Source of the DNA: Mesostigma viride
Lineage: Eukaryota; Streptophyta; Mesostigmatophyceae; Mesostigmatales; Mesostigmataceae
Length of the DNA: 64,000 nucleotides
Assembly: GCA_009746045.1 (NCBI GenBank)
Contig: RPFO01000256.1
Span: forward strand, 888,429 to 952,428
Direction: 5' to 3'
Within the stretch, counting starts at the first letter, position 1; every line of letters begins with the position of its first letter. Below the pieces are notes generated by a model. It ran no database searches and was not told the origin of the DNA. It saw nothing but the letters and a program-made list of their open reading frames with translations. The position numbers and the translations under genes are program-made. Below are positions 2,327 to 51,359 of the stretch, piece after piece.

Positions 2327-2331
2327 AGCTG

Positions 2332-2801: not shown

Positions 2802-2834
2802 TTCAATATTTCTTTTACAAGCAAAAAAAAAGAT

Positions 2835-6701: not shown

Positions 6702-6793
<92 letters not shown>

Positions 6794-8708: not shown

Positions 8709-8709
8709 G

Positions 8710-11023: not shown

Positions 11024-11025
11024 CC

Positions 11026-11043
11026 AATCCCTTCTTTTCTTTA
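11026..11043 (-). other. Polypurine tract of element C (complement shown on plus strand)
   Basis: The plus strand reads a pyrimidine run (TCCCTTCTTTTCTTTA) just inside the 3' LTR, so the minus-strand RNA has an A/G run at the expected plus-strand primer position. Confidence 0.7.
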
Positions 11044-11972
11044 GGGATCACATCCCCTGCCAGGGACCCTTGAAGTAGCTTGAAATGTCCTTCACTCCAG
11101 CTTGAAGCTTGAACAGATGTCTTTAATGGCCATTGCCATTCCCCCAGCCCTTTCTTTTAAGGAACTGGAAAAGAAACAGATCTGCCACAGGGAAAACCAT
11201 TCATGAGAAATGGATAAAAACCTATGGAAGTGGCATTACAGAGTACCACCAGATATTAGAAGCACACAAAATTAAATACATACAGGTTAATTCTATGAGG
11301 TCTTCTCCAGGAATTAATCCCATCACCTCGGTAGAGCCTCCAGTACAATGACCTTCTGGCGGTGAGTTACATTAATCCCAGATACTAATCCCATAAAACC
11401 CAGTACATATTCAATATAAGTACAATAAATCCATGACAATTAAAATACCACTTGACAAAGTAAGGCGTATTACAATAGTTTGCCTGTCATTCTCTCAACA
11501 GGGGTCTATTGGCGCCCGTCTTACGGCGCCCGTCTACTTGCCAGATGGTAAACTGCCACAGCAAACAAATGACAAAATGAAACACATAGGCAACAATTAA
11601 ATCCTGCCCTGGGGAACTAGGGAAGTCTGAACAGGCAAACACCTGAACAGGCCAGCTTGTAGAAACATAATACCAGGGAATCGAACCCCGCCCTATAAAC
11701 CCCAGAATAAAGGTTCCCAGACCATTGTGAGAAGTATGTACAAATATACATTTCTTTTAAAATAGAATACATGGTCTGTAATGGACCTGTCAACCTTGTG
11801 TAGTCAACAGCATGAACCCCAGCCAAAACCTGGCTGTATCCTGATTAAAATCAGAGTGAGTGTACCATGGTCCATGAGCCTTAGTACAGACTAAAATACA
11901 GGTATTATGCCAGTCACAATGCTGACACTACCACACAATCTGCTCTCCAATGCCCTATAACCATGCACCAGC
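11044..11972 (-). other. 3' untranslated region of element C, no gene seen
   Basis: This AT-richer stretch lies between the RNase H stop and the polypurine tract. It contains only short chance ORFs on both strands, and I see no conserved motif or secondary element. Confidence 0.6.
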
Positions 11973-13800: not shown

Positions 13801-13849
13801 AAAGCAGTGTCCTGTCCAAGGATAGGAATGAATACCTCACCCAGTACCT

Positions 13850-15454: not shown

Positions 15455-15595
15455 AGGAACCTGTACCTCTCCAGGTGACCTGGGGCCACACTGAACCTGG
15501 AGATCACCCTCTTGTTGCCCAGATATAAAATCTGCATTGGAGCACCTGGCCTCCCCCTTGGGTGAATTAAGGTGTGTAGGGGTTGCCTCAGACAG

Positions 15596-16706
15596 TCACT
15601 GCTCCTTGTTGTCTTCTTGCTGACTGCCCTTTGAAGGCTGGCCTGCCTGGGACTTGTTGTTGTTCTTCTTGTTGTTGTTGTTATTCTTGTTGCTGCCCTG
15701 GCCCTGGGACTTCTTGAAGCTGGGACACTCCTTCTTGATGTGCCCCCACCCCTTGCACAGGTAGCATTGTATCTTGGACTTGCCCTGGCCACTGCCCCCA
15801 TTGTCAGACGCGTTGCCCTGCTTGGGCTGACCACCCACCCGCCTGAACACCGACTTGGAGTGTGACCTCCTGTCAGAATCAGGTGAATGATCTCCCTTGC
15901 GCTTGTGATGGTTGCCCCTACGCCCTCCTTGGCTTCGGTCAGCCTCAGACGTCTTGGAGCCACCCTGGGTACGCCCGCCTGCCTGGGTAGCCTTCACTGC
16001 TGGCACTCCACCCTCAAACAGCTCCTCTGCCTCGAGTGCTTGTTTAATGATGACCTTGTAGGCCTTCAGGGTAGAGTGTGGGGCACACATGACTTTAAGG
16101 AGCCACGTGTCGCCTTATCCAGCCCAGAAACCTTGAGCCAGTTGGTTAGGGCTATGTTATCAGCGACATTAAAGCCGTGAGCCCTGCCCTCCTCAACCAT
16201 CTTACAATAGTTGAGAAAGTTCTGGATCAGGTCCCCCTTGACCTCCCACCCTGGTATTTCCTGCCAATGGATCCCCACTTTCTTCCTCTGATCCTCCAGC
16301 AGCTCCTTCAGCTCAGCCACGTACAGTGCCCAGGCCTTATTGGCCTTTTGCACTCCCTGGTTAGGTCCTTAATCTGGTCAGTACACTTGCCAAAAGTGCT
16401 ACTGCCTATCCAGATTTGATAGTAATTTGTACCACCGTACAAGCTAGGGAACCCTTCCAATCCCTCCACAAACTCTTCAGCCTGCTTAGGCTTGGAGTCT
16501 GAGGTTACAGGCTGCAACTGATTGACAATTAAAAGACCCTGTGTGGTAAGATCAAAGCCATGAATAGCTTGTGCATTATTATTATTGTGAGGAAGGTTGG
16601 TAATCTCTCCGGTAAGCCCCACGTCATCTACGTGAGCGGTTCCACTACCAGCACCCCCATTATTATTCCCACTGGCTGGACCCTTGCTACGGCGTCCCTC
16701 AGCCAT
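15596..16706 (-). pseudogene. Element C Gag, in three frames
   Basis: Three overlapping segments (16706-16308, 16353-16066, 16090-15596) join into one Gag. The first is Asn/Gly-rich and carries the start MAEGRRSKG. The second is a helical capsid-like part. The third is basic with one knuckle, CYLCKGWGHIKKEC (CX2CX4HX4C), and an Asn/Lys run near the end. Element D/E has the same order in one frame with a knuckle of identical spacing. Two frameshifts make this copy a pseudogene. Confidence 0.8.
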
Positions 16707-16875
16707 CCTGCACTACCAGCTATTCAAAGAACACCTTAGCAAAGCAGCAGAAAATATGTACAAAATTTTTGTGTCGCCACTGCCGCCTGCGCCGGTGTCG
16801 CTGCCGCCCCGCGAATTGCCGCTGAAAATTCGACAAAAAAATGTCGACGAGTACTGCAGAAGAAAATTAGGCCGA

Positions 16876-17493
16876 CTAGTAGTCAAGGCCCCTGAAGTCG
16901 CAGTACGTGTATACGAACTCACGATCCTCCATATCCAGCTCCGGACCTGCACCGGTATGAATTAAAACCGGCGTGCTCCCCGCCGCGTAAGTTGCGACGC
17001 GCCGACGCGCGACGAGGCGCAGAGGATGTGTAAAGATCGTCAATAATTCCCACCCCGCGGGAATCCACTCTCGCACAGAGGCGAGAAATGCCACCAGGTT
17101 AATTAAAACCTGGCGCTCACGACTGCGTACGCCGCGAGTGAGCAGCGATAGCAGCGCGAGATCCTGAAACAAATTTGTTGACACCGCCGGCGCGCCCCCC
17201 GTGCGTAGCGATGCCCAGTTTTGCAGGTTTCTCTGGTAACCGGTGAGTGAAGAGAGGACGTTGTCCAACTCCTCAATGGCAGTCGTGACTTCGGTCACCG
17301 ACCGCAAACCTCCCCGCACCTGGACCGTAAATGTCGATAAAATGTTTCGAATCTGGTCCAACAGGTTGCGGATTGCCGGCACCAGTGCTGGCAAATCGGG
17401 GTCCTCGGGGTTATCCCCGAGCAATGCGTGAGCTGCACGCTGCTGACGATGAAGCTCGTCGAGCGAGACGTAACTTCGTCGAGCAATTGCCAC
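16876..17493 (-). CDS. Element C ORF1 upstream of gag
   Basis: This 205-residue ORF lies between the 5' LTR and gag. It is largely helical with a short acidic C-terminus, and has no known motif. A frame just upstream (17580-17400, DSDDEEIAAPPAG) may be its true N-terminus after a frameshift. Position and composition match D/E 28757-29682. ORF1 of elements B and H has the same location but runs towards Gag in nearly the same frame. Function unknown; a capsid-associated role is inference. Confidence 0.6.
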   Translation of the reverse strand: MAIARRSYVSLDELHRQQRAAHALLGDNPEDPDLPALVPAIRNLLDQIRNILSTFTVQVRGGLRSVTEVTTAIEELDNVLSSLTGYQRNLQNWASLRTGGAPAVSTNLFQDLALLSLLTRGVRSRERQVLINLVAFLASVREWIPAGWELLTIFTHPLRLVARRRVATYAAGSTPVLIHTGAGPELDMEDREFVYTYCDFRGLDY

Positions 17494-17605
17494 GACGGCA
17501 CAGTCGGTCTTGACGAAGAACCAGCCGGCGGAGCGGCTATTTCCTCATCATCGGAATCCGAAATTCTTCCGAATTTGGCATCTTTTTGACAGAGCGTGTA
17601 ATACG

Positions 17606-18221
17606 AGTTGTGAGGGTAAGAATGCCACGAATTCCGCCATGGTTCTTGCAGGAAGTTGCCTTTATTAATAACAGGAAACACAGACGTAAGTCACGTCACT
17701 TCCAAGACTGCACGCAGCACAGACGACAGGGTCGCAGTGCCAAGAGAACGTGCACGCAAGAACTAGCGTCCCGGTGTGACCAAGTCACTCATATAGCTTG
17801 CTAGGGACGCGTCCAAGTATTCAGCTGCACTGTCACAGCTGAACTGTCAATCAATTGATTACACAGACTCTGGCACGCCTTTGGCGCGCAGATCTATCAA
17901 TTGTCCATACGGCTAGTCCTGTGGACCTATCCGTACACTACTCAGCATCAATTGTCTCATAGGTCCTGGCGCGCTACAGTGCGCCTACCTATCAATTGAC
18001 CATCAAGTCCTGTACAAGTCCTGTCAACGTCCTGCGGACTATCAAAGTGACACTTGTACATCCTGTGTCCGTACGCGCCCACAGTGGCGCGCCGGGTACT
18101 GTCGGCACAGCCTAGGAAACGTCATAACTTTTACGTTCCTTAACCAAATGAGGCGTTCAAGGTGCCGTTGGAAAGAGCGTAACAATCTCTATCCATCTAA
18201 CGTAAATCCTTTACGTTAACT
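17606..18221 (-). repeat. 5' LTR of element C (616 bp)
   Basis: The uninterrupted copy of the C LTR. On the plus strand it starts AGTTGTGAGGGTAAG and ends TTTACGTTAACT. The element-internal side (17605 and below) shows no TGG primer-site start on the minus strand. The outer side is followed by CCCTG (18222-18226) and then by element B's RT linker. Confidence 0.88.
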
Positions 18222-18225
18222 CCCT

Positions 18226-20062
18226 GGTGTCCTCATCTCCAGTGATAGACTATCCATCCAGGACATGGGTGGTGTTGATCTGAATCATTTCAAAATTTCT
18301 CTTGAAAAACTTCTTAACACCAACATTGCTTCTGTAAAATTTGCTACACCCAAGTATGCCCCAGGGCAAGAACCCTGTGTGGCAGACTTGGTTCACAATC
18401 AAAAACTTCATCCCAACTCATTTGGATTGGGCAAGCATGATGTGGCTAAAATGTCTCCTCTCTCTTATGAACAGATAGAGCAAGACTGTCGCACACACAT
18501 AGGATTCCTAAAATGGGTGGAGGCCTTTAACAAGGCCAGGGAAGAATGGGTAGTGCCAGATCCTCTTAGTCCCTCTCATACCCCACCTGTTACACCTATT
18601 GACAAAAAGCCTGCAGGGTGCAAGCACTTGCGCCTGAAGTTTGTGTGTAAACATAAGCCAGCAGCAGATGGGTCAGTCATTTTTCATGCTAGACCTTGTG
18701 TGACAGAGTTCAAGGGCACCACTGATCTGACAGAGGCAGAGTTATACACGCCAGGCATTCAGCAAACATCCTTAAAAATCTTGCTGTCTGTCTTTGTGGG
18801 TCATCTCAATGATGGGGATGATTATGTATGTAAGGCTACAGACATTAAAAGGGCTTTCTTGAAAGGCTCCCCTGAGATAGCACAACAAGTGTGGCATGGT
18901 CAGGTGTATGTAGTCTCCACTCCCAGAGTTTGGGCAAAACACATCCCTCAGCAGTATCTGAAAGCTAACATAGGTGTTGAAGGGCTGCAATCAGCTCCTC
19001 GCATTTTCAGGATGTCAGCTCAGGCTGTGTTTGAAAAGCTAGGGGCTAGATATGATGACATAGACCCTTGCTTCTTTGTGGTCCCACACCCTCATGGCAT
19101 TCTCACCTTTGTGTGGCATGGGGATGATCAGCTGATTGCTGGGCCAAGGCGTGCTGTGGATGATTTTATTCAACAAGTGTCACAGCAAATTTTTGAGATT
19201 GGCAAGCAAGTAGAGCTGGGCACCACTGCCATAAAATTTTGTGGAACAATGTTACAACTCCAGCAGCATCAAAACCAGTGGGTGTGTGCACTCTACTCTC
19301 CCAATGATTACATGCACAGCTGCTTGGAGGTTTTGCAAACAAAAATCAAACCTGGAGCCTGTCCTACCATTAGAGGCAAGCTGGGGTGGTTGTGCTCAAC
19401 GTGTGCACCTCACCTGGCTGTGGTTAGCAGAGTTGATGATGATGTCTTGATGCAAGTAGGTCACAAAGCCATCACCAAAACTCTCCAGGAAGGCCCTCCC
19501 CTTATCTTGCACTCCTTGGATCTCCACAAAACCATTCACATCCAAGCTATGATGGATAGCTCCATGGAGTCCAGGCAGATTACCAAGTTGCAGGCAAGGG
19601 AGTCAGGCTTGTATTTTGTGCAGAATGATGATGCACCCTTGTCTCTCATTTCATGGTACAGCCGGTTGCATAGACGCAAGGCTGTCAGCAGCAATGCTGC
19701 TGAGTGCAGGGCAGTGGTGTCAGCAGTGCTTCATGCCAGGTACTTGAATCATGACAGTGCTGGTTTGGTTGCAGATGCAAGCAGGCAGCAATGCTGGGGT
19801 GGTGGCACACTTGCTCACTGACAGTCAGTCAGTCCTCAGTTTCCTTGCTAACCCCTACGCTGTCCACACTGATCTTGACTGGGTGGTCCTGAAACAGGAG
19901 TCCACCTACTGGGAGTCCACCCGTCACGTGGAGGACAAACACAACGCTGCTGATGCACTCACTAAAGTGCCTCAGCAGGCAGCTGAACAATATCAGCTGT
20001 TGTACCACTTGATGAACCCCTATGGCAAGCAGGCAACCCTGCCCCATAGGGGGGACGCCTAG
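18226..20062 (+). pseudogene. Element B reverse transcriptase and RNase H
   Basis: This continues the protease ORF that ends at 8708: the joined junction reads CYP then GVLIS, and aligns with NPGISI of D/E. RT motifs are HARPCVTEFKGT, ATDIKRAFLKG, GVEGLQSAPRIF and VWHGDDQLI. RNase H motifs are MMDSSMESRQ, SSNAAECRAVV, LTDSQSV and NAADALTK. The first segment ends at 19821 and the second runs 19751-20062 in another frame. One indel near 19755-19770 therefore breaks RNase H. The first in-frame ATG (18265) is not a real start. Otherwise the enzyme looks complete. Confidence 0.87.
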
Positions 20063-21137
20063 CAGGGTCCTGTTCACCAGGGCCGCCTAGGTAACCCAGT
20101 ACCCCTTGGGCAGGGCCAAGGGGTAGGGTGTGGCTTACAGCAAGGGGGTTGGTTGGAGTCTGTTTTCATGCATCTGCGTGCCCTATGCCAATAAAATCTG
20201 TTTCGATTTTTTCAACACCATGGAATTTCGTTATGCCCACCTTCATAGGTGGGCATGGGATGTATCTCACACTTTTTTTTTTTCCACTAGGGTTGTATGC
20301 CTTGGTGGATTGGCCTTGAGCTCAGTGGCTCAGGTGCCTCCCATTCAAGTGGAGGGTCAAAGATCCCTTGACAGGTGGTTACCCAGGACCCCAGTTCACT
20401 GTGGATATCCTGGGCCACCTGGCCTTACTGTTCAGTGGCAGTAAAGGCATGGGTGCTGTCATGTTGTCTGGTACAACGTGCTCAGCCCAGGTGCAGGATG
20501 AAATATTCCTGTCACCTGTCACCAGGACTTCAGCCACCACTGTGCAGGGCAGGGGTGGCTGGTCCCCACACGTTGTGCAGGTGCAACGTGGCCAGGTCCA
20601 GGATGTCATAGTCCTGTCACCTGTCACTAGGACTTCAGCCTCCTCTGCATGTGCAGGGCAGGGGTGGCTGGTCCTCACATGTTGTGCAGGTACAACATGG
20701 ACAGTGCAGGGTGCAATAAACCTGTCCACTGTCACTCCTCAGGTTGCAGGTAACCTGAGCTCAGTTGACCCAGCCTGGCTGGGTATTTTTTCTCTGAGTG
20801 GGCGATGATGATGGAACAACATGGAACCTCTTAAACGGTTACCTTGGCATTTTTTACAATGGCTCTCTTGGCTGCTGATGCACTCCCTGGATAGGCAGAC
20901 AGGCATAGCTATCTCCCTTGTGAGCTCGCGAGGAGGAGGAACTCCCCGGGCATGTTGAGCTAAACGTGATGCCATCACAAGTATTGCACGAGTTCTGGGG
21001 CCCATCTTTTTCAGTCCAGATGTTGCAGTATGGGTGTCAGTTGCTCAGCACCTCAGTCAGCTTGGAGTCAGTCTCCTAGCTGGGCAGGATCAGGCTTGAA
21101 GTCGCTAGCCTTCAACCTGAAAGGAAAACATAATGGG
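20063..21137 (+). other. 3' untranslated region of element B with internal repeats
   Basis: No gene is seen. Two to three degenerate copies of a roughly 115-bp unit (CCTGTCACCTGTCAC.AGGACTTCAGCC, then GTGCAGGGCAGGGGTGGCTGG and GTTGTGCAGGT.CAAC) occupy about 20485-20745. A purine-rich stretch (GAAAGGAAAACATAATGGG) abuts the 3' LTR and is the likely polypurine tract. Confidence 0.65.
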
Positions 21138-21595
21138 AGTTAGATGAGATGCTTAGGCTGACACACGGATTTCCGGCCTGCGCGCCGCGTATTGCCTACC
21201 GCGGCTGAGCGGGACACCTCAGTACAGTACGGCAGGGTGTACGGTACTGAGGTGTCATGTGGACCGATGTGCGGTTAGTGCCAGACTGTGCCTAGACTCT
21301 AGCCCGACCCGCCAGACCCGGGTTATCCGGTTCTGGACGGGCCGAGTGTAGTTGATGCTAGTGACGTGGTCGCATGGCATTGCAGTGTACAGTTGTCCAC
21401 TGGTGAGGTGCTGCAGGTAGCACCGCCATAGGCATATAGGCGTAGCACTGGGGAGTGCCGCAGCACCCGAGTTTGCCCAGACGTTCCATTCTGAGCCCTC
21501 AGCTTCCATTGCTCTCTCATTGTATTATTACTAATACAATCATCATTCGCTCTCAGCTTCAGCAGTTGTTCGTCGTTCCTAGTCTCCATCCAACT
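21138..21595 (+). repeat. 3' LTR of element B
   Basis: Same length and near-identical sequence to 2332-2789. It is followed by AGCTG (21596-21600), the second target copy, and then by minus-strand RNase H sequence of D/E. Confidence 0.88.
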
Positions 21596-23434
21596 AGCTG
21601 GACTGGATCCCCTCGCATATGGCCCTGCATTCTGCCACATCTGAACTGATACAGACCCTCTTCTGCAGTCTGCTGTACCAGCTGAACAAACTTGCCCTGC
21701 TCTGATAAAAAGCAAACAGAGCAGCAGATCTCCCCCTGACCTTGGTAACCTGGCGAGCATCCATGGAACTGTCAACAAAGATCTCCAAGGTGATAGGCTG
21801 GGCAAAGTCAATCCCAGACAAAATCAGATCAGGGGTACTCTCCACCAATCGGGCTATGACTCGAGGCTTCTCATCCTCAAGCACCTCATCAGGCATTCTG
21901 CTATGGACCATCAAAGACGGACCACAGATGCTGGCAAACCAGGCCCACATGCCTCTCAACTCAGGTCCTGCAGCCTGGGTGATCTTCTCTGGCAAGGCCT
22001 TCACAATGGTCTGTTTATAATCTCCTCCAGCCTGAAGCCTGATACTCCACTCCCCATCCCTCCTGAACAGGGTAGCCTGCATTCCACAGAACACTACAGG
22101 CTTGTTGGGTTCCTGCCACAGCTCCTTGCCCAGTGAAAACTTGCCACTGATGACAGGAATAAACTTCTTCAGCCAGGTCGTGGGGGCTAGCAAATGCAGA
22201 TCATCTCCATGCAAACTAGCATACACTGGCAGACCCTCCCATTGGGCCAGCAGCAAACAGGGATCAACTGAAGACACTCTCAAGCCACACTCACTGATCA
22301 GAGCTTCCTGCAGCGTGAGTCTCCAGATGATTGGGCTCGACCTGAGTCCTTCCAGGCCCTTCAGAATAACCAGGAATTGTTGATGCAGCTCCAGCTTCCA
22401 GATGGCAGGCACCTCAACACAGTAAGGCTCATCCTGCTTCCACACCCTCCTGGCCACTTCTGGATCAGATTTTAAAAATGCCCTCTTGAAGTCCAGTAGC
22501 ACTGATGACATAGCTGCTCCCCTGTTCAGCAACCCCACGTAGAGACATAGCAAAATTCTCCATGTGTCGTGTAACAGTCCCTGGCGTGTACAGCTCCTCT
22601 CCTGGCAGACTCCCCGTGCCGTGATACTCATTCAGGACAGGCCTGACATGGGGCACTGATACCTCATCCACAACCTTCCTCTTCAGCACAAATCTCAAAG
22701 CAAGCTTCCTTGATGCTGGGGGACGTCTGTCTGTTGGTGCAGCACACTCAAACTGCAACCACTCCTCCAATGCCTTGGAGAAGGCGAGCTTCCAAGCCTC
22801 AAACAAAGTAGGCGAGCTCATCTCTTGGACTAGCTGGTCATATGTCAAAGGAGAGTGTGCAGCAAGGCTCCTGTGAGTTATGCCAATACTGCTGGGGTGC
22901 AACACAGCTGGAATCACCAAACTGGCTGCTGGGGGCACCTCCCCTTCATCCCATTTTACACCCTTGACCGGCTTGGCCCTGCACCTGACTGGAAATGTTG
23001 TTCTGAAATTTTCTAGGGGAATCATCCCCCAGCCATCTCTTCTCAGAGCTGTAGCTCTGATAGAAATCCCAGGATTGCCCAGAAAATTCTGACCCAAAAT
23101 CACAGGGCCATCATAGTCCTCTAGGACAAGGAAGGTCACATCCACACCCATGACATGGGCAGTAACCTCTCCCAACACCCTTAGATGCGTCCTGCCACTG
23201 AAATCAGACACCCAGGGGCAACTTGGTTCTCCGACCAGCAGTTCTCCTGTATGCTGAGGTCCCATGACAGAAACCTGCGCATTGGTATCTATCTCCATGG
23301 CAGCTACCTCAGGTTCATCCAACTGGACAAGCTTGGACACCTTAGGCTTCTTCTTGGCTCTTTGCAAAGCCTGTACAATATCTGATAGACGCACACCCCT
23401 AGGCCTGGTGTCGGGCCGTTCCGGAGGTGCAGCC
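21596..23434 (-). pseudogene. Element D/E protease, RT and RNase H (one frameshift)
   Basis: Protease comes first: AMEIDTNAQVSVMGP, then DFSGRTHLRVLGE and VILGQNFLGNPG. RT follows: RPVLNEYHGTG, LLDFKRAFLKSD, LKGLEGLRSSPIIW and LHGDDLHLL. RNase H motifs seen are FVDSSMDARQ and SSDVAECRAICEG; the third aspartate is on the sliver at 2235-2326. The frame changes at about 22580, so RT is split between two frames. The N-terminal residues read from 23457 belong to the inserted LTR, not the protein. The genuine continuation is the integrase end at 26027. Closest relative in the window is element C. Confidence 0.87.
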
Positions 23435-23438
23435 TGTC

Positions 23439-24574
23439 TGTCGCGTTTGCGTGCCATTATATCCTAGCCTATCACTTGGAAGGCATATCCATAGCAATAG
23501 AGTACTCATGTGTGTGATCCACTATATCCAAAATCCAGTGTGATGCAGGTCACGGACATACTTGGCCGCCGACCTCATGACAGGCAATTCCGTAGCCAGC
23601 CAGGTGTAGAATAAAACCATGATGCTTTATTATATATTTGGAAAGCAACCAAACCATTCACATTTAATTTCAAAAGACATCGACAAGAATACAAGTGTTG
23701 TCTAGTCGTATAATGTCGTACTTGTGCGTCACTGTCCAAATAAGGCTAAGCGGTTCTTGATAACCTAGCAGGCCTCGGGTGACGCCACACTGCTCCGCTT
23801 GGCTTACGGCTGGCAGCCGGTGTTCTTTAGCGCCCCCTATCCTGTCTACCTATCCCGCTTACCCCAGCTATGGCTCACTGGCCAACGACGACCGGGTTCC
23901 TTCCCGAGTCTCGCCCACAATACACACATCATCTTGACGAAACCAAACAGTTATCACTTCCGTCAACCAATCTCATGACAATTACTCATTGCAACCACTC
24001 TCGGGGGCTGCTCCGGATTGTTCCACTATTAAACCCCTTGACGACAACACCAAGTTGTGAGGGAGAGTAACGAGCGAACAACGACCACCATGGCCGCTGC
24101 CGTGCTCCTAAATACCTCCAAAAATCCCGGCATCCATGCGCTGTCGCATTTGCCAGCAAGCCGCCTGACGTGCAGTTAGACTGCCAGCAAAATGCTTAGC
24201 AAGTCTGTTCGACAGCCACGTGCGAGCCAGCACACCGCACACTACGATCTGCGTATCTAGCTTTGTCCGATGGACTGAACATCATTCCGTCTGGACAATA
24301 CAAAAGATTCGTAACTGCCAAATGTCACGCACCGGAATATTGCGCAAGCCACCAAGGCTTTGCGCCCCAAAGTCTTGTGCCTGAACCTAAGTCAGGTCAC
24401 CTAAGACTGTCACTCTAGAAATTCAGGCCTTTCCGGCGCGGCGCTCCACACCGGCCCAAGGAACAAAGCCTGCGGCCTACTGAATCGGAACCAACCAAAC
24501 GTCGGTAACGATTCCGATTACGGCAACCGCGTAACTTCTTGAGTGCACGGACGTAAATGATCACGGACGTGACA
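23439..24574 (-). repeat. LTR copy 1 of a tandem LTR pair
   Basis: This 1136-bp LTR-like unit runs TGTCGCG...CGTGACA, an imperfect terminal inverted repeat with TG...CA ends. Only GC separates it from copy 2. In the minus orientation its start (TGTCACGTCCGTGATCATTT) resembles the gypsy LTRs here in style. The pair is flanked by TGTC (23435-23438 and 26023-26026). No convincing gene is inside. Confidence 0.75.
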
Positions 24575-24576
24575 GC

Positions 24577-26022
24577 TGTCGCGTTTGCGTGCCATTATAT
24601 CCTAGCCTATCACTTGGAAGGCATATCCATAGCAATAGAGTACTCATGTGTGTGATCCACTATATCCCCCCCCCACTTTTTAGCTCGAAAAAAGGGGAAG
24701 AGCCAAAAAGTAAAAAAAAAAAAGGATCACATAGGAAAAAAAAATTCCCACGGCAGGACCACACATGCTTTTCAAATAGGCTAAGCAATAACCTCTTCAT
24801 GGCTTTTTCAAGGATAAGCATAATCCTCTTCATGGCTTTTTCAAGGATAAGCCTAATCCGCTTCATAGCTTTTTACAGGATAAGCTTAATCCTCTTCCAA
24901 GTGCTCCACCCTGCAAGCACCTTGGGTATACCTCCGGCTCGGGCTGGCCGAACTGAACCCGCCAAGGGTTGTTCGCTCGTTAAAATCCAGTGTGATGCAG
25001 GTCACGGACATACTTGGCCGCCGACCTCATGACAGGCAATTCCGTAGCCAGCCAGGTGTAGAATAAAACCATGATGCTTTATTATATATTTGGAAAGCAA
25101 CCAAACCATTCACATTTAATTTCAAAAGACATCGACAAGAATACAAGTGTTGTCTAGTCGTATAATGTCGTACTTGTGCGTCACTGTCCAAATAAGGCTA
25201 AGCGGTTCTTGATAACCTAGCAGGCCTCGGGTGACGCCACACTGCTCCGCTTGGCTTACGGCTGGCAGTGTTCTTTAGCGCCCCCTATCCTGTCTACCTA
25301 TCCCGCTTACCCCAGCTATGGCTCACTGGCCAACGACGACCGGGTTCCTTCCCGAGTCTCGCCCACAATACACACATCATCTTGACGAAACCAAACAGTC
25401 ATCACTTCCGTCAACCAATCTCATGACAATTACTCATTGCAACCACTCTCGGGGGCTGCTCCGGATTGTTCCACTATTAAACCCCTTGACGACAACACCA
25501 AGTTGTGAGGGAGAGTAACGAGCGAACAACGACCACCATGGCCGCTGCCGTGCTCCTAAATACCTCCAAAAATCCCGGCATCCATGCGCTGTCGCATTTG
25601 CCAGCAAGCCGCCTGACGTGCAGTTAGACTGCCAGCAAAATGCTTAGCAAGTCTGTTCGACAGCCACGTGCGAGCCAGCACACCGCACACTACGATCTGC
25701 GTATCTAGCTTTGTCCGATGGACTGAACATCATTCCGTCTGGACAATACAAAAGATTCGTAACTGCCAAATGTCACGCACCGGAATATTGCGCAAGCCAC
25801 CAAGGCTTTGCGCCCCAAAGTCTTGTGCCTGAACCTAAGTCAGGTCACCTAAGACTGTCACTCTAGAAATTCAGGCCTTTCCGGCGCGGCGCTCCACACC
25901 GGCCCAAGGAACAAAGCCTGCGGCCTACTGAATCGGAACCAACCAAACGTCGGTAACGATTCCGATTACGGCAACCGCGTAACTTCTTGAGTGCACGGAC
26001 GTAAATGATCACGGACGTGACA
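24577..26022 (-). repeat. LTR copy 2 of the tandem pair, with a 0.3-kb insertion
   Basis: It matches copy 1 closely, apart from a 4-bp difference near 25268 and an insertion at about 24668-24981. It ends at 26022, followed by TGTC and the D/E integrase tail. No internal region exists between the two copies, so this is not an ordinary LTR element. Confidence 0.75.
24668..24981. repeat. Insertion in LTR copy 2, related to one arm of the 51.4-kb hairpin element
   Basis: It begins with a C-run and A-rich tracts. It then has about four degenerate 36-bp repeats with the core GCTTTTTCAAGGATAAGC.TAATCC, and ends GGTTGTTCGCTCGTT. The same core and a similar loop-flanking sequence (GAACTGAAC, GTTGTTCG) occur in the hairpin element at 51360-51831. 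It looks like a single arm of that family. I could not define a target duplication. Confidence 0.55.
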
Positions 26023-26026
26023 TGTC

Positions 26027-27440
26027 CGCCTGCTTGCCCAACCACCGTATGTGAAGGTACCCCAGGGGCCGGGCCAGGGTCACCCTGAGGGCTCGATACA
26101 GCTGTAGCACCCTGATCAGGAAGTTCCACGTCACCCCCGCCTTGTACACCAACGGGCACCTGGAAGAGGTCTCCTTGATTACCTCCCCGGGGACGGATCT
26201 TTGACCAGGACAGACGGTGCACTGCCTGGGAGCCATCAATGGCCACCCAGCACTTATGGCCAGCGGCTTCTACTCGGGTCACCACCCCATCATGCCAGCT
26301 GCCACGTTTCCCTGGAAAGCTTGGCTCCTTCCACACAACAACCTGTTGTCCAACGTTAGGTTCTAGGACACTCCAGCCCTTGTCTTTCTGCCTCAGCTTG
26401 AGGAACTTGGCCTCTAGCTTCTCCTTCCATGCCTGCTCAGCATCAGCTGGCAGCATCCTGGTGTGCAGCATAAGAGGATTGATGGCAATGTCACCAAAGA
26501 ACATGGGAGTCCTGAGGTTCAGCCTATCCTCCACAGAACGTAGCCATGCAGATGTCACAATGGCAGATGACGTCCTTGGAATCCTCTCCACCAGCAGCAC
26601 AGTCTTGATCTCTTGGATGGCTCTCTCCACCACCCCTTGCTGGCCGTGGCTCTCCCTGGGTGTAATCAGCAACTCTGGAAACTCTGGCAGGTTCTCACAG
26701 CACTCAAACTGAATGTCACACTGCAGCAACTCCAACCCAGGGTACCTGCTCCTTGTCAACTTCAGAGCAGCAATTAATGTAGGCTTCTCCATGTCAGGCA
26801 GGATCTCTAGGGTCTTGTACTTGGTATATCTGTCCACTGCCACCAGCAGCTTCAAACCCCTGATTCTCTGAATATCTACCTGCACATGGCCTGGCTGCAA
26901 AATAGGAGATCTGGCATGAGACTGCTTGGGCTTTCTAGCAACTAGCCTGCACTTGCAAGCTTGAGCAACCTGTTGGCAGATGGAGTACAACTCACTTCCT
27001 CCCAGCCGTCTAGCAACTTGCAAAGACTGAGCTGCATGGCCAAACATGGTATGCAACCTTGAGGCAATGTCATACAAGAGAGAAAATCTTTTATTGTCAT
27101 TATTAGCACTCAAGGTATGTACAGATCCCTTATGTACAGGAGGCACCAGGGTCGTGCCTGTCAGACTGTCTCCAGCCCTATCCTCATCCTGACCATCCTG
27201 TGCCAGTCCTGCACGGTCAGAATGCTTCTGAGATCCACCTGGGTCCACATCACCAGGTCCTACCTCAGGCTCAGCACCGCCATGGCGGGCACGTTGGCGA
27301 GTAACCACTGCAGCTACAGCTGGCATACTCTCTGTGGTAACCAAGCTTGCCCCATCGTGTCCAATAGGCTCTGTCACTAGAGCATGGGGCTGCCCCTCAC
27401 TGCCGTCACTAGCAGCTACATTACACACCCCTGGGGGCAC
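26027..27440 (-). CDS. Element D/E integrase
   Basis: About 470 residues. After an acidic linker comes the finger region (RLHTMFGH ... ACKC). The core reads VDIQRIRGLKLL, CDIQFECC and GVVERAIQEIK, with 29 residues between second Asp and Glu. The C-terminal part (VGQQVVVWKEPSFPGKRGSW) parallels element C. The true protein passes into the protease (AGG then QAAPPERP) at the GACA duplication. Reading into the inserted LTR adds a false C-terminus (25863-26026). The start overlaps gag by 25 nt and is in the -1 register to it, so frameshifting or a mutation links the two. I recognise no slippery heptamer. Confidence 0.85.
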
Positions 27441-28654
27441 CCTCCAGGGTACAGGGATGTGTGCAGGCTCAAGTCAATGATCAGCAGCCTTGCCCTTGCC
27501 CTTATCCTGGGATGGACCAGCCTTCTCCTTGCTGCCACCCTGAGCTGGCTTGCTCTGACAGCTTCCTGCCTCAGGTACGAGGGACACTCATTCCTGAAGT
27601 GACCCTTCCCTTGGCAGAAATAACATTCCACCTGACTGATGTCCCGTGAGGTCCCACTGCTGGGCCCAGCCTTGGGAGGACCACCCACCCTCTTGAAGTC
27701 AAACTGGGACTGTGGATGCCCCGACTTCGGCGGTGTCCCCCGTCCGGCCATTCTGCCACGCCCCCTCCTGGACCTTCCTCGACCCCTTGAAGAGGTCTCA
27801 GGCCCTCTCGAGGACGCTGGGCCCCCGTGGCCCGATTCCCTCATGGACTTAACCGCAGGTTCAGCTGCCTCCTCATCCACTTGACGTGGGCGCTTACCAC
27901 TTACGTACTTGCCGCTGAAACACTCATACAACTGGTCCGTCATGGCTGCCCAGCCATGGACCTGTCGCATGTGGATGGTCACATTATCCATGGTGACAGG
28001 ATCCAGCTGCAGCGACTTGAGAAAGTCGCCCATGGCCATCCGATCTGCAACGAAGAATCCTTTGGCCATGGCGTCCTCCCTCAGCTTGACAAAGTCTTCA
28101 AAGGCGTGGACCACTAGCTGCCCCTTGATGGGCTTGTAGTCCAGGTACTCTTGCTTCAGGTGAGACCCATCTATGGTCCTCTTGTCACTCAGGAACGACC
28201 TGAGTCGCGTCATAAATGCCGCCCAGGTGTCCCCCGGCGTGTGTCGCTCCCGGACAAACTTGAACAGCCGCCTCGCCGACTGCCTTATGTAGGCACTAGA
28301 CGCCAGGATGCGAAGCTTGTCACCGGTGTAGATGTCCGTGTACAAGTTCATGTCCTCTAACATCCTCTCGGCGTCCCGGGGCTGCCAATTGTCCTTGATG
28401 GACTGAAACTGGCTGAGCACCGCGTACCCCTCAGCCACGGTCGGCCGCCTCGGTGCTGCTTGATCTGCAGCTGGCGCGTTCTGACCGCCCTGCGATCCTT
28501 GGCTCTGATCATCTGCCAGCGCAGCCTGGTCTCCCAGCGCCTGGCCGTCACCGCGTCCATCGCGTCCATCGCGTCCATCGCGTCCATCCATCCCAGCGCC
28601 GCGCCGCTCGTAGCCCATACCGCGCCCCCGTTGGTCAATAGCACCCTCACTCAT
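27416..28654 (-). CDS. Element D/E Gag
   Basis: 412 residues starting MSEGAIDQRG. A microsatellite-like GACG run encodes repeated Asp-Gly-Arg (28550-28590). The helical capsid-like region spans about residues 75-260 (QFQSIKDNWQPRD ... LYECFSGKY). A basic Arg/Gly linker precedes one zinc knuckle, CYFCQGKGHFRNEC (CX2CX4HX4C). The C-terminal tail after the knuckle may be in a shifted frame. It is the best-preserved Gag of the C-D/E subgroup. Gag packages the RNA in cytoplasmic particles. Confidence 0.82.
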   Translation of the reverse strand: MSEGAIDQRGRGMGYERRGAGMDGRDGRDGRDGRGDGQALGDQAALADDQSQGSQGGQNAPAADQAAPRRPTVAEGYAVLSQFQSIKDNWQPRDAERMLEDMNLYTDIYTGDKLRILASSAYIRQSARRLFKFVRERHTPGDTWAAFMTRLRSFLSDKRTIDGSHLKQEYLDYKPIKGQLVVHAFEDFVKLREDAMAKGFFVADRMAMGDFLKSLQLDPVTMDNVTIHMRQVHGWAAMTDQLYECFSGKYVSGKRPRQVDEEAAEPAVKSMRESGHGGPASSRGPETSSRGRGRSRRGRGRMAGRGTPPKSGHPQSQFDFKRVGGPPKAGPSSGTSRDISQVECYFCQGKGHFRNECPSYLRQEAVRASQLRVAARRRLVHPRIRARARLLIIDLSLHTSLYPGGCPQGCVM

Positions 28655-28756
28655 GATGGCCCCTGTTCAGATCTACTACAGCCAGCCAAGTGGCCAAGCA
28701 GCAATTAAAGCAATATAAGCTACTGAACAGGAAAGGAAAATGACAAGTGTTACCAC

Positions 28757-45456: not shown

Positions 45457-45474
45457 AAAAAAAAAATGGGGTGA

Positions 45475-45750
45475 AGTTGCAATAATGTGTTTTGGATACC
45501 AACGCTCTTCGTCGAGAGGCAAGTGCTTTGGTGCTACGCAGAGGAACACGCAGGCGGCTACCTCGTCCGCCGTCACGTTGCATTTATTTCTCATTAACTT
45601 ATCATCGTGCATTGGACTTGCTTAACATAGTCCGAGATTCCTCGGCGCGACGCTAGATGCCGTTCACAAGATTCCGTCGCAGCAAAGATGCTGACGGCGC
45701 GGCGTCCACACTAGGATTTAGGGTACTGAGTAGAACTACACAGTACAACT
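45475..45750 (-). repeat. 3' LTR of element G (276 bp)
   Basis: Starts AGTTGCAATAATGTG and ends CAGTACAACT on the plus strand, matching 51084-51359. The inner side (45751-46167) is the element's 3' UTR, which has no gene. Confidence 0.9.
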
Positions 45751-46167
45751 CCGACTTCTTTTTCTTTGTGAGTCGGTACGGACAGGGATGTACTCAAGAT
45801 GATCGGTACGGCCGCATCCCAGTCACCGACTTCACAATCCTAGTAGTGGCAAAGTCTTGTTGGGAAACAACACCAACAAGCATAGCGGTCGCATGAACTT
45901 GGATGCATGTGCAAGACACACATCATTATGGCAAGTCATTTATTCATCGTACCACACTGGGGAAACCCGGAAACATAGTATGCCGGCCACCGCCAAGCAT
46001 CAACGGGTGAAAACCCAGACAAGAGCCCATTACATAGTATGCAACTCTCCCGCAGAGAGAAGCATCAAGGCCATGGTCAATGCCAATTTTAAATAGGAAA
46101 TTCAGAAAAGAGTGAAAACACACATCAGCCAGGGCAAGATGTAACCCTGAAATCAGACAGGGACAAT

Positions 46168-49100
46168 TTAAAGTGTCGCCTGAACTAGACGAAGCTTGTC
46201 ATACTGAGGCCTAGCCTTGGCATACAGCTTGGTCAAAGCATCTGAAATGTTATCATTGTCGCGAACATGGTACAGCGAAACAGCGTCACTATATTCTTTG
46301 GCACGAAGGAAGTCGAGCTTGCGCGTGCGCGCATAAGGATCAGCCAAAAAGTCAATCAGCGACTGCGAATCCGTGAAGATGGTGGTATCAACCTGTGGAA
46401 TGACACGGCAAAACTTCAAACACCACCGAAGAACCGCACGGAAATACATCAACTCCTCAGCAGTCTCGCAGAAGGCACGAGCCTCTGCAGTGTCACTACC
46501 CACATACACCCGCCGATGTAAGCGAGAAAACCACGCAAAGGGTGAAGGGGAAGATTCAGGGACATGGACAGTGGCAGAATTACTCAAAAGCACCACAGCG
46601 GCACAGCGCCCACGGAGCTTAGAGATATTAGCACTATCCAAACTGCTATCACAATACGCGGACAAGTGAATAGGCCGCTCATAGTCCACCCCATGTAAGA
46701 CCAACCCAGGGGAGGCAGAAATGTACTTACACATGACATTGCGGGAAAGAGAGCACATCAAGTCATCTGGCAACCGAGCAAGCACCGCCAAGTCAGGGGA
46801 GACGGTAGAGACCAGCCAGTTCAGCTTACCCCGCAGAGAACCACACTCAGCAGGCTGAATATACTGACTAGTAAGGGATGAAAGCTGAGTGATGAGCTCC
46901 TGAACATAGTCCCCCGCTGCACGCAGCTTCATCACATATCTGCCAGAGGCATCCTTGGTGAGCATAGTGTCGACGCCACAGAACTTGACATACTTGTCCA
47001 AGACGCGGCGAATGACCTTGCCGACCGGGAAGTGCTGAGCAACAGTGGCACAAAACCAGTCTAGCCACGGTGTGGGGCCCATGCAGTCCACATCATCGAC
47101 ATGAATGAACACAAAAACTGGCTGCCCCTCCCATGAGCCAACAAACAGAGAGGGGTCCAGGTCATGATAGTACATGTGCATCACATCAAGCAAAAGACGC
47201 TCGAGGCAAAGGCGCCAAATCCGAGGACCTGTCACAGTACCGTCAACACCCTTCAAGAGACGGAGAAACTTCTTGCCCATGATAGGCTGCCACAAGGGAG
47301 GACAGCGCACATACAAGCGGGTCGTGCCAGCCCACACATTCTCAGCGAGCTTGGGATCACCATTCAAAAAAGCTTTGCTGAAATCCATGAGGGCTGACTC
47401 ATACGGAAGTCCCTTGTTGAGCTGGCCTAGGTAGAAGGACAGGACCATGCGCCAATTATCCTTGATCAACCCAGGTGCTGAGATGGCATTGTCCGGAAGA
47501 TCACTAGTACCTGAAAATTCTAGGACCACCGGGCGAACAAAAGGCACCCTAGTTGTTGTGTCAGGCACCAACTTACGCTCCAAAGTCCACTTGTGGCGCA
47601 AAAGGCGAGCACCACTGGGCACTTCATCAACCGGTTCAACAGCACGGTATGCAAGCCACCTTTCACCTGACGCAATAATGGCCTTAGTCCACCCATCTAG
47701 CCCCTCCTCCGTTTGACACTCCACGTCAGCATCATGGTAAGAGATAGGGCTTTGGGTAGCAACATCATGACGTCCAATGCCGAGACTAGCCAAGCTAGGA
47801 CGTTTAGGAAGCAACAACTGAGTTACCAACGGCACATCACTCTCACGGGCATAGTTCACGTGCCGAATGTTGCCTATGACAGCAACAAGTTGGCAGTCAG
47901 ACATGACAGCATAGTCCTCAAGAGGCAGATCAGCATGCCCCTCCCGCCGCAAGCAGGTGGAGTTGACCCAGACATCCTCCCGTACAAGGAAGTTCTGACC
48001 AAGGATTGGTGGACCACTATACCCTTCCACCACGCAAAACTCAACTAGCACCCCCATCACATTGACATCAATGACACCAAGGACAGGGAACTTCGTTGAG
48101 CCAGCAAAATCAGTCACACACTCCCAGTGCACTGAGGGTCTCACAGGATTGTAGTGCAGGGATGAGACAATGGAGGTTCTCGCCTGCGTATCTACCAACA
48201 TCCTCATACCATGCTGATCACCCAGGGTACCAAATGCGGATACCATCGCTGCCTTGACGGGATTTTGCAAAGCGTCTGTAGGAGGTTTACGCATCAACCT
48301 TTCTACAGCAAGGGTGAGAAAGCCCTTACGGCTTGGGCGCTCAAGACAGGAACTGCCCTGAGTACTATCCCTACCAACGCAGGGATCCTCCCGACCAACG
48401 CCAGAAGGGGGGAGGTTAGGCAAGCTGTCGCGCAAGCTCTCTGCCTGTTCTACCCCTAGGGTGTGTAAGTGGTGTGCTACCACAGCAACATCATCATCAT
48501 AGTCCCCACTCTGCAACTCCAACTCAGCTTCCCCACTAGGCGCGCTAGTACCACTGTCCCCTGCATTGTCACATACAGGAGCCGAAGAGGAAGGAGGAGT
48601 CACAGTGCTAGAGAGCCTGCTAGGGTCGGAGTACAACTCCAACACTCTAGACCAAGCCTCCACATCACGCATGTAGGGCTTCACCCTATTCCAAGCCATA
48701 GTGACCTCAGTGCCCTCATAGTCCACCACGCATTTACGCATAGCAGCATCACAAGAAATTACCTTGGCTGGACCAAGCCACCTGCCACGCTTACCCAGGG
48801 CACCTTCCTTGTGCAGCCAAACATCATGCCCCACACTGGGCTCATAAGCCCCACGTCGCCTATCCAACTGGACAAGGCGCTGAAAACGGGATGCTAGGTG
48901 GTCTTTGTACACATCCACCACCACATCGTGATATTGGCCAAACTGCAAACCCTCGGCAGTCACCAACACCCCATCCTGTGTCGACATCAGCACACGGTTG
49001 TTCAAACTTCGACACACGGCAAGTGCCCACAAGAGCCGACTAGAGAATTCACTGTGTGGCATGTGGTCCCCACGTCGGGTAGCAAGCAGCTTAAACTCCT

Positions 49101-49827
49101 GTACCGCTCTCTCCGCTATCCCTTGTGACTCGTGGTCCTCACGCCCCACTGTTCCCACAAACTCATATCCAGGTTCCTTGGCAGCCCACTTGAATTGCTG
49201 ATCAAACTGCATCCCTGTAACCATGCTAAACATGGAGTCCAACAGGTCTATCCCCTCAAGGAGGTCCCCAACATGCTGTGACTTGAGTGGGACAACTGAA
49301 ACAAAATGGGAAAATCTGTCTATTCCCAGCAAGTAGACAGCCTGGTCCTGGAACAAAATGTCACACACCAAGTGACCACGCTCAAGGGGTGGGTGTTTGA
49401 CATGCCTACGTGCACGCTTAGGCGCAGTGGACTGACACTGGTGACAACCACTGTACATGGACTGCACCGTGCTAGCCAACTTAGTCCCCGGTGCCAGTGC
49501 CCGTGCAAAACGGATAGCGTGGGTCCCATGGCCTAACACATGATGCAAGCGTGCAGCAACAGCAGTCAAGGAAAGGACTTCACCTGGTGTGGCCAGTGAC
49601 CCCCCATCGTCACGGTCGACGTGCATGAGTCCAGCTTGCATAGTACCAGCATTACTGGTCGGTGGGGGTTCATGGTCCCGCGTTGCCGCAGGCGTAACAA
49701 TGTCTGTGCACAAGCCGCTACGCAACACAGCAGCAATGCACGCAGCAGAATTGTTGTCTACACAACTACCCAGCTCATCACATGCAGCTAGATTAGTGGT
49801 AAACACATCATCGTCCCAACATGGGCT
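46168..49827 (-). CDS. Element G Pol: integrase, protease, RT, RNase H
   Basis: Numbering from GTG at 49806 (1212 residues). Integrase: finger H88..H93..CHQC 121-124, then D149 (VCDIL), D202 (FDQQF) and E232 (GIAERAV), with 29 residues between D202 and E232. Its basic C-terminal region runs to about 380. Protease: VDTQART 538-544 and ILGQNF 601-606. RT: RPVVLEFSGTS 758-768, D808 in MDFSKAFLNGD, LLKGVDGTVTGPRIW 850-864, and IHVDD 901-905. RNase H: D1052, E1108, D1146 and D1189 (ISDALTKL). Every domain is complete, but protease follows integrase. The frame overlaps the gag stop in the -1 register with no own ATG, so it is probably made by frameshifting. Confidence 0.92.
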   Translation of the reverse strand, partial: SPCWDDDVFTTNLAACDELGSCVDNNSAACIAAVLRSGLCTDIVTPAATRDHEPPPTSNAGTMQAGLMHVDRDDGGSLATPGEVLSLTAVAARLHHVLGHGTHAIRFARALAPGTKLASTVQSMYSGCHQCQSTAPKRARRHVKHPPLERGHLVCDILFQDQAVYLLGIDRFSHFVSVVPLKSQHVGDLLEGIDLLDSMFSMVTGMQFDQQFKWAAKEPGYEFVGTVGREDHESQGIAERAVQEFKLLATRRGDHMPHSEFSSRLLWALAVCRSLNNRVLMSTQDGVLVTAEGLQFGQYHDVVVDVYKDHLASRFQRLVQLDRRRGAYEPSVGHDVWLHKEGALGKRGRWLGPAKVISCDAAMRKCVVDYEGTEVTMAWNRVKPYMRDVEAWSRVLELYSDPSRLSSTVTPPSSSAPVCDNAGDSGTSAPSGEAELELQSGDYDDDVAVVAHHLHTLGVEQAESLRDSLPNLPPSGVGREDPCVGRDSTQGSSCLERPSRKGFLTLAVERLMRKPPTDALQNPVKAAMVSAFGTLGDQHGMRMLVDTQARTSIVSSLHYNPVRPSVHWECVTDFAGSTKFPVLGVIDVNVMGVLVEFCVVEGYSGPPILGQNFLVREDVWVNSTCLRREGHADLPLEDYAVMSDCQLVAVIGNIRHVNYARESDVPLVTQLLLPKRPSLASLGIGRHDVATQSPISYHDADVECQTEEGLDGWTKAIIASGERWLAYRAVEPVDEVPSGARLLRHKWTLERKLVPDTTTRVPFVRPVVLEFSGTSDLPDNAISAPGLIKDNWRMVLSFYLGQLNKGLPYESALMDFSKAFLNGDPKLAENVWAGTTRLYVRCPPLWQPIMGKKFLRLLKGVDGTVTGPRIWRLCLERLLLDVMHMYYHDLDPSLFVGSWEGQPVFVFIHVDDVDCMGPTPWLDWFCATVAQHFPVGKVIRRVLDKYVKFCGVDTMLTKDASGRYVMKLRAAGDYVQELITQLSSLTSQYIQPAECGSLRGKLNWLVSTVSPDLAVLARLPDDLMCSLSRNVMCKYISASPGLVLHGVDYERPIHLSAYCDSSLDSANISKLRGRCAAVVLLSNSATVHVPESSPSPFAWFSRLHRRVYVGSDTAEARAFCETAEELMYFRAVLRWCLKFCRVIPQVDTTIFTDSQSLIDFLADPYARTRKLDFLRAKEYSDAVSLYHVRDNDNISDALTKLYAKARPQYDKLRLVQATL

Positions 49828-49829
49828 AT

Positions 49830-51056
49830 CTAGTTTGCTGCAGAGGGAGCAGGGACAGGCACATGAGTGTTAGCAGGTGTGGCCTGGGTGTTCCCCTGCC
49901 TCTGCCATTTGTTCCACTTGGCCTTCTTGGGCCGCATGTTGCCAGCCGGCTTGGGCGGGCGCTTCTTGCCCTGCGGACCGCGTGTGTGCTTGCAGTCCTT
50001 GGCGAAGTGCCCTGGCTGGTGGCAGGCGCCACACAGCCGCACATTCGGACCAGCCTTCGTGTTGGCTGGGCAATCCGACCACACATGCCCGGTGCCCTGG
50101 CATCGGCCACACTTCTCTTCACCTGCACCATGAATTCTTGCAATGGGCGCTGCAGCAGAGGAAAGAGGGTCAGAAATGCCCGCTGCCACCAATGCCTTGG
50201 CGGCAGCCGGCACAGCAACAGAATTGCGAATAATCTGGAAAGCCTCTGCCCTATTTGCTAGCTTGTCGACAGTCAGTGTTCCCGACATGCCCTGGAGGGC
50301 GGACTCAGACAGGCTACCAGACATGATGCCCTTTGCCAGAAACATTACCACCGAGAAGGCGTCACCTGGCGAGCAGGACGACAACGCCAGTTTCTGCTCG
50401 TAGTCGAGCGTTGCCTGGCTGATGTCTACCTTCCGATTCAGATCAAACTTTAGAATACTCACTGCATCTGCGACGAGGCGCATTAGCCCCGTCTTCAGGA
50501 GATTCTTCTCAAGGCTAGCCATGAATTCTTCCCAGCTCCGGTCCTCCTTGTAGGCTATCTCGATCAGGTCGGATACGACCTTGTAACCCTCGGTGGCCAG
50601 CCGATTGCGCCTCAGCAATTCGATAGGCTTGGCTACCATGTCTTGGACATCACTGTGCCACTTGCGCAGGTTCAAAATAAACTGTTCTTTCACCTTCTCT
50701 GATGGCTCAGGAGCCGCTGGAATCGGCGCAGGAATTCGCTCCTCGATCACCTTTTGCTCCTTCATCCAGAGGATGCGGGCAGCACGGTCTAGGCTTGCAG
50801 TGCGCAGCCCAGCCGCCTGTGATCCACTTGGCAGCTCCGCTGCACGGGCAGCTGCAGGTGCAGTTTCCTCCGCCGCAGTGTCCACCACTGCGGGGCTATC
50901 CTGCTTGGCAAATTCTTCGTTCAGATTCCTCTGAATCTCGCTCGCGGTGGGCTTGCGAAGTGTGCCCACGCCCTTCGAGCCCAGGGCTCCGAGATTCGGC
51001 AGCTTGATTTTGTGTTTGATTTTCGACGACGGCGTTGTCAGGCCCGTCCGGAACAT
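49830..51056 (-). CDS. Element G Gag
   Basis: From ATG at 51056 (MFRTGLTTP) 408 residues; the frame extends upstream into the 5' LTR but the internal Met is preferred. A basic N-terminus precedes an Ala-rich linker, then a capsid-like helical region (QFILNLRKWHSDVQDM ... EAFQIIRNSV). Two zinc knuckles follow, CGRCQGTGHVWSDC and CGACHQPGHFAKDC, both CX2CX4HX4C. The tail is Lys/Pro-rich. Gag would assemble particles and bind the genomic RNA. Confidence 0.85.
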   Translation of the reverse strand: MFRTGLTTPSSKIKHKIKLPNLGALGSKGVGTLRKPTASEIQRNLNEEFAKQDSPAVVDTAAEETAPAAARAAELPSGSQAAGLRTASLDRAARILWMKEQKVIEERIPAPIPAAPEPSEKVKEQFILNLRKWHSDVQDMVAKPIELLRRNRLATEGYKVVSDLIEIAYKEDRSWEEFMASLEKNLLKTGLMRLVADAVSILKFDLNRKVDISQATLDYEQKLALSSCSPGDAFSVVMFLAKGIMSGSLSESALQGMSGTLTVDKLANRAEAFQIIRNSVAVPAAAKALVAAGISDPLSSAAAPIARIHGAGEEKCGRCQGTGHVWSDCPANTKAGPNVRLCGACHQPGHFAKDCKHTRGPQGKKRPPKPAGNMRPKKAKWNKWQRQGNTQATPANTHVPVPAPSAAN

Positions 51057-51083
51057 TTTTGAAAATGTTCTTTCTTGAGTACA

Positions 51084-51359
51084 AGTTGCAATAATGTGTT
51101 TTGGATACCAACGCTCTTCGTCGAGAGGCAAGTGCTTTGGTGCTACGCAGAGGAACACGCAGGCGGCTACCTCGTCCGCCGTCACGTTGCATTTATTTCT
51201 CATTAACTTATCATCGTGCATTGGACTTGCTTAACATAGTCCGAGATTCCTCGGCGCGACGCTAGATGCCGTTCACAAGATTCCGTCGCAGCAAAGATGC
51301 TGACGGCGCGGCGTCCACACTAGGATTTAGGGTACTGAGTAGAACTACACAGTACAACT
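51084..51359 (-). repeat. 5' LTR of element G (276 bp)
   Basis: Matches 45475-45750 without a difference noticed. The internal side on the minus strand begins TGTACTCAAGAAAG, a possible but unproven primer site. The outer side is GGTGA, then the hairpin element. Confidence 0.9.

Follow-up and report, generated by a model that had tools for sequence, protein, structure and literature searches.

Can a long terminal repeat (LTR) retrotransposon carry its integrase (IN) between gag and the protease (PR)? The gene order of pol is among the main features by which superfamilies of LTR retroelements are told apart, and this question is raised by a stretch of 64,000 nucleotides from Mesostigma viride (contig RPFO01000256.1, positions 888,429 to 952,428; hereafter the window, in whose numbering coordinates are given), which harbors a complete element termed G. 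In G, gag is followed by IN, PR, reverse transcriptase (RT) and RNase H (RH), and BLASTP comparisons between pieces reveal the same collinear arrangement in elements B, C, and E of the window and in P0002, a Mesostigma protein from another predicted gene that is 47% identical to G in a protein database search. We consider it likely that these five represent one old M. viride lineage, with gag followed by IN-PR-RT-RH, in which a retropepsin-like PR processes the polyprotein.

Element G lies on the minus strand (45475..51359), bounded by identical LTRs of 276 bp (5′ LTR, 51084..51359; 3′ LTR, 45475..45750) with the termini AG...CT (AGTTG...CAACT), and flanked on both sides by the target site duplication (TSD) GGTGA (45470-45474 and 51360-51364); the repeat listing gives the LTRs as 277 nt, the extra nucleotide being a chance flanking A. 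The gag ORF (49830..51221, minus) encodes two CCHC knuckles, which score 20.1 bits against a Pfam cut-off of 20.8, and its start is likely the ATG at 51057, since the part of the ORF upstream of it falls inside the LTR. The pol open frame (46168..49869, minus) is shifted by −1 relative to gag with an overlap of 40 nt, stops ≈420 bp from the 3′ LTR, and gives a product of 1212 residues counted from the GTG at 49806. This product comprises, all on the minus strand, IN (48673..49554; an HHCC domain, the D149/D202/E232 core, and an SH3-like C-terminal domain), a retropepsin-like PR core of 72 residues (47986..48201; DTQA ... ILGQNFL), the RT core (47023..47535; the stretch matching RVT_2, with an HVDD motif in the pattern of the other lineages), and the RH region (46171..46689), whose copia-like motifs reach the C terminus with no integrase behind them. 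An earlier reading made from the letters of the window (the sequence-only reading) had proposed the order IN-PR-RT-RH behind gag for G and likewise for B, C, and E, and our piece-by-piece comparison bears it out; it had also located D149, D202, E232, VDTQA at 538-542, and ILGQNF at 601-606 where we find them when counting from the same GTG, and its start and end coordinates for G were right, with the strand, which it left unnamed, being minus.

The five lineages, P0002 counted, are well diverged, with 28-60% identity per domain, and in G, P0002, and B the frame is unbroken between IN and PR, which are joined by linkers of 159, 161, and 135 residues, respectively (104 in C). Element B (2332..21595, plus; TSD AGCTG) encodes gag, IN, and PR in a single frame (5877..8714, plus; PR core at 8478-8696, DTQA) and is split between PR and RT by element C, with RT and the start of RH following at 18223..19818 (plus). 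Element C (8710..18221, minus; TSD CCCTG), nested in B and frameshifted, carries IN and the N-terminal half of PR (DTNS) in one frame (13853..15595), the C-terminal half of PR (LLGQNFL) in another (13737..13949), RT (12697..13836), and the end of RT with RH (11976..12734), all on the minus strand. In element E, also on the minus strand, gag with a CCHC knuckle (27419..28666) and IN (25866..27473) are separated by ≈2.4 kb of inserted or duplicated DNA from PR (DTNA) and the start of RT (22468..23463); the piece with RT and the start of RH (21597..22631), identified by BLASTP to C, G, and B, is cut by the insertion of B, and an RH remnant beyond B (2196..2330) is recognized by eye against C. Thus C sits in B (between PR and RT) and B in E (within RH), and both insertions are accompanied by matching 5-bp TSDs.

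That B, C, and E are all broken elements, nested and frameshifted, with the PR of C disrupted by a frameshift, could be taken to favor a local rearrangement, an assembly error, or the decay of one ordinary element. Against this, G is intact, and at least 23 copies of it, each at its own site, have the same pol sequence; P0002 derives from another predicted gene, and the lineages differ at 40-72% of aligned positions; we therefore give this explanation practically no chance, the identical G copies and the diverged relatives together excluding it, in line with the earlier argument that an order repeated in separate, diverged elements is no local rearrangement.

A six-frame search of the 440-Mb genome returned at least 39 matches to G. 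Pol is identical over 3639 nt in 23 of the 30 copies fetched, the window's own included, and LVDTQARTSIV is carried by all 30. Of eight copies whose 5′ ends were analyzed, seven retain the 5′ LTR intact, next to a matching 5-bp TSD that differs from copy to copy; no LTR was seen in the stretch from the eighth, L012, and matching 5-bp TSDs also flank the window copy and copy L030. The latter (1167-5547 of its own stretch), 4381 bp long, has lost internal sequence; its LTRs are identical, its TSD is GCTGG, and it is apparently non-autonomous. The identical pol sequences, intact LTRs, and TSDs indicate that insertion was recent and that the 5-bp duplications were made by an integrase. We infer that G is an autonomous element whose copies were produced by its own PR and IN, although another family may have helped.

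Is there a second protease in the usual place, upstream of IN? A scan for D[ST]G[AC] in the three sense frames (of E, only to 21600) found no match in G or E, one in B (DSGS, within the IN core at 7683), and three in C, of which two are in LTR copies (18072 and 10874) and one is upstream of gag (16799). Within the scanned stretches, then, no protease motif lies between gag and IN in G, B, C, or E, and for B and G this agrees with the sequence-only reading. From the last knuckle-like motif, located by eye, to IN there are 80 residues in B and ≈145 in G, the frameshift included; since a gap of this size is large enough for a small domain, the case against an upstream protease rests on the absence of the motif and of Pfam matches.

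An alignment of the G integrase adds H88, H93, C121, and C124 to the acidic triad, and a structure model (predicted local distance difference test [pLDDT] of 74) matches the prototype foamy virus (PFV) intasome with an E-value of 4.8e-14 over model residues 1-306; on the strength of this prediction we firmly assign a retroviral-type integrase with an HHCC domain, a DDE core, and an SH3-like C-terminal domain. The second Asp is separated from the Glu by 29 residues, the usual spacing in integrases being 35, and in C and E one residue, not two, lies between the two Cys. G is itself inserted in a Ty3/gypsy chromovirus with PR (DSGA), RT-RH, and IN-chromodomain in the ordinary order, all above Pfam cut-offs, and this neighbor thus serves as a positive control for both the method and the genetic code. 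Between the predicted SH3-like domain of the G integrase and the equivalent part of the Ty3 element there is a weak alignment (hhalign probability 1.8%). RVT_2 is the only RT family matched by B, C, P0002, and G, with E-values of 1.7e-8, 5.6e-7, 3.1e-4, and 4.9e-3, respectively; B attains 34.8 bits against a gathering score of 31.6, and C, P0002, and G (residues 758-928, E 0.0049) fall under it. The scanned pieces of E gave no Pfam RT match, and RVT_1 found none in any lineage piece at E up to 10, with the Ty3 element detected at 7.1e-25. The catalytic RT motif, YxDD in most LTR elements, is H-x-DD in all five lineages (HVDD in G, HADD in P0002, and HGDD in B, C, and E). Against NCBIfam, the only matches were weak ones to IS481 transposase and response-regulator families.

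The region between IN and RT appears retropepsin-like by profile, under the curated cut-offs of Pfam. A profile of it searched against the PDB at E up to 10 gave 12 matches, 10 of them to named aspartic proteases and four below an E-value of 0.01; in the best (retroviral-like aspartic protease 1, E 0.0047), DTQA aligns on DSGA, and the 11th, a UBA-domain protein, is probably a DDI1 relative. With a core-only profile all four matches are to the same protease (E 0.29-0.30), and PF13975 is the best Pfam family in three of four PR pieces (E 0.05-0.14). Alignment with the PR of the Ty3 element reached an hhalign probability of 1.3%, over the triad region alone, compared with 0.1% for a mismatched control. 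G, P0002, and B share DTQA at the triad, against DTNA in E and DTNS in C; DTG occurs in none of them, a point on which the sequence-only reading did not comment. The C-terminal motif reads ILGQNF (G and E), LLGQPF (P0002), LLGDPF (B), or LLGQNF (C). Could this likeness be due to chance, the region being no retropepsin at all? The structure model of PR is poor (pLDDT 49) with no useful fold match, the Pfam scores are below threshold, and the profile E-values are modest; on the other side, aspartic proteases make up most of the profile matches, their active sites lining up with the triad, and they are absent from the reversed-profile control, which returned a single unrelated match at E 1.6, so we regard chance as very unlikely. 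Foldseek and VIA-align searches with this poor model listed unrelated structures and no retropepsin among them, a result that we do not count against a retropepsin.

A more serious alternative is that the domain is a pseudoprotease, a retropepsin fold that has given up catalysis and serves in dimerization or packing, with processing left to a host protease or dispensed with. To our knowledge, Gly at the third triad position is near-universal in this protease clan, and since each of the five lineages has Gln or Asn there, the activity of PR is putative. The loss of Gly is no artefact of how the genome was read, as DSGA is kept in the adjacent Ty3 element; likewise, an altered genetic code behind DTQ is ruled out by that DSGA and by the different codons with which the four window elements spell the triad. 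Nevertheless, drift of the catalytic Asp would be expected if catalysis had been lost, whereas all four cores in the alignment share Asp, Thr, the following Ala, and the Gly of ILG/LLG (in C, the residue behind the triad is Ser), and the G family has multiplied recently. PR is also at least as conserved as IN: its core identity exceeds that of IN in all six pairs and that of RT in two of three (P0002-B: PR 60% versus IN 35% and RT 28%; G-B: 44% versus 33% and 32%; G-P0002: 49% versus 47% and 59%), a comparison of a 72-residue core with whole domains that tilts somewhat toward PR. In fungi, protease is reported as the fastest-evolving domain (PMC3248453). On balance we judge a pseudoprotease unlikely, at perhaps one chance in four, and retain a working retropepsin as the preferred reading.

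Several other findings, along with the missing triad Gly and the poor PR model, weigh against a functional IN-PR-RT-RH polyprotein. No scanned IN or PR piece attains a Pfam gathering score, and the RH profile found eight weak, unrelated matches and no relative in the PDB, so that this domain is identified by its motifs. G would need a −1 shift or other recoding to make pol, and at its gag/pol overlap no standard slippery site was recognized by eye and the RNA folds no better than shuffled sequences (z 0.07); a scan for bacterial promoters and terminators at the same place found nothing, which is not meaningful in an alga. In P0001, a Mesostigma protein (predicted in Mesvir1 from a copy of G) identical to G over the aligned part, a predicted intron joins pol residue 75 to 417 and removes residues 76-416, which hold IN. 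We take this IN-skipping intron to be a prediction artefact; were it spliced out in reality, one of the products would be a PR-RT-RH protein that lacks IN. Finally, three protein searches, which detect close relatives only and in which 7993, 7997, and 8000 candidates were scored, gave Mesostigma P0001 and P0002 alone or nothing, with no relative in another organism, and a scan of viral contigs found no relative of the lineage either.

Starting from the established order, collinearity, domain identities (the IN fold by prediction, PR by profile only), and recent mobility of G, a life cycle can be proposed. Gag and pol would be made as a polyprotein, from the fused frame in B and by a −1 frameshift or similar event in G; the decayed copy C has CAG TGA CTG between gag and pol. 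The retropepsin-like domain would dimerize and cut this polyprotein by means of the conserved Asp-Thr, the usual Gly being replaced by Gln or Asn. There is a precedent in foamy viruses for a PR that remains joined to RT after a single cut ahead of integrase (PMC9143442). The RNA would then be copied by RT and RH in particles, and the three-domain IN would insert the cDNA, leaving the 5-bp duplications.

Additional features of the window accompany these elements. The LTRs of G, B, and C start with AGTT and finish with AACT rather than TG...CA, with matching TSDs in all three. In G, 11 nt directly following the 5′ LTR (51073-51083, TGTACTCAAGA) are complementary to 45789-45799, 38 nt before the 3′ LTR; end-pairing of this sort occurs in the RNAs of some LTR elements, and no such 11-nt pair was seen in the tested stretches of B and C. 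Directly next to G lies a perfect inverted repeat (51368-51805) whose arms of 207 nt enclose a 24-nt spacer. Long nested palindromes and inverted repeats (3818-5017) lie between the 5′ LTR and gag of B, upstream of the gag coordinates, and a possible further B-like gag is found at 61593-63842, of which 63560-63842 is 74% identical to 5845-6126. Elsewhere, ≈30-bp tandem repeats at 38200-39200 lack stop codons in several frames of either strand, and two ORFs of ≈400 residues on opposite strands (1-1573 and 32590-34051) are 76% alike at the DNA level.

That an old lineage which moved recently uses a third order shows pol order to be less fixed than assumed and suggests that PR can be relocated or replaced independently. 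Pipelines that annotate superfamilies from domain order would place such elements wrongly or overlook them; no IN or PR piece scanned here attains the Pfam threshold. In a family whose multiplication is demonstrated, the DT(Q/N) triad also allows a natural test of whether retropepsins can do without the catalytic Gly. The bolder claim, that this is a deep new lineage with IN between gag and PR, a working Asp-Thr-Gln/Asn retropepsin, an HxDD RT, and copia RT-RH joined in a mosaic to a PR of non-copia type, still transposing in an early-diverging streptophyte alga, we hold at slightly less than even odds. Neither the gag-IN-PR order nor the triad was found described in the open-access literature searched, in which order-string queries ran without a positive control; the element remains an LTR retrotransposon, and its set of enzymes is the usual one. 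The family may of course be catalogued already, for instance in Repbase or a subscription journal, as both Mesostigma genome papers report repeats, LTR elements, and repeat libraries (PMC6947507, PMC7027972). Yet the words copia and gypsy do not occur in their main text (PMC6947507, PMC7027972), and no open-access paper with this order string emerged, the two papers matched by phrase describing ordinary orders and foamy-virus cleavage; prior cataloguing therefore strikes us as improbable, a little more so than a pseudoprotease.

How, then, does this lineage compare with known systems? Like Ty1/copia elements (Pseudoviridae), it has an RVT_2 RT, RH in last position, IN ahead of RT, a 5-bp TSD, and a CCHC gag; unlike them, it has PR behind IN, where copia pol is PR-IN-RT-RH, as well as LTR ends of AG...CT, an HxDD motif in RT, and ILG or LLG in PR where copia proteases are reported to have LLS or ILS (PMC2774666, PMC2642776). 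With Ty3/gypsy (Metaviridae) it shares an ILG-type retropepsin (PF13975), and its SH3-like IN C-terminal domain aligns weakly with that of the Ty3 element in the window; it differs in having an RVT_2 rather than RVT_1 RT, an IN that is not C-terminal, and an order other than PR-RT-RH-IN. A 2009 comparison recognizes five positions of integrase: after pr (all copia then known, and Gmr1), after rh, truncated and reversed (REM1), lost, or upstream of gag (Petunia vein clearing virus, PVCV) (PMC2774666). A position between gag and pr is not among these five, which extends the sequence-only reading's claim that the order matches neither Ty1/copia nor Ty3/gypsy. The same source assigns LLS to copia PR and ILG to most other PRs and describes copia integrases as without a GPY/F module (PMC2774666); the copia-type label attached by that reading accordingly holds for RT, and the ILG motif of PR is of the non-copia kind. 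The lineage thus pairs an RT of copia type with a PR of the ILG type and perhaps, given the weak alignment, with a GPY/F-like IN tail, and it may for this reason be a mosaic; the likeliest history would be that a copia-type element lost the PR upstream of IN and gained an ILG-type retropepsin downstream or had one substituted there, the alternative being that PR moved and changed. A changed pol order has a precedent in Gmr1-type Ty3/gypsy elements, although their IN follows PR as in copia, and PVCV (Caulimoviridae) likewise carries its IN far upstream, although there it precedes gag (PMC2774666).

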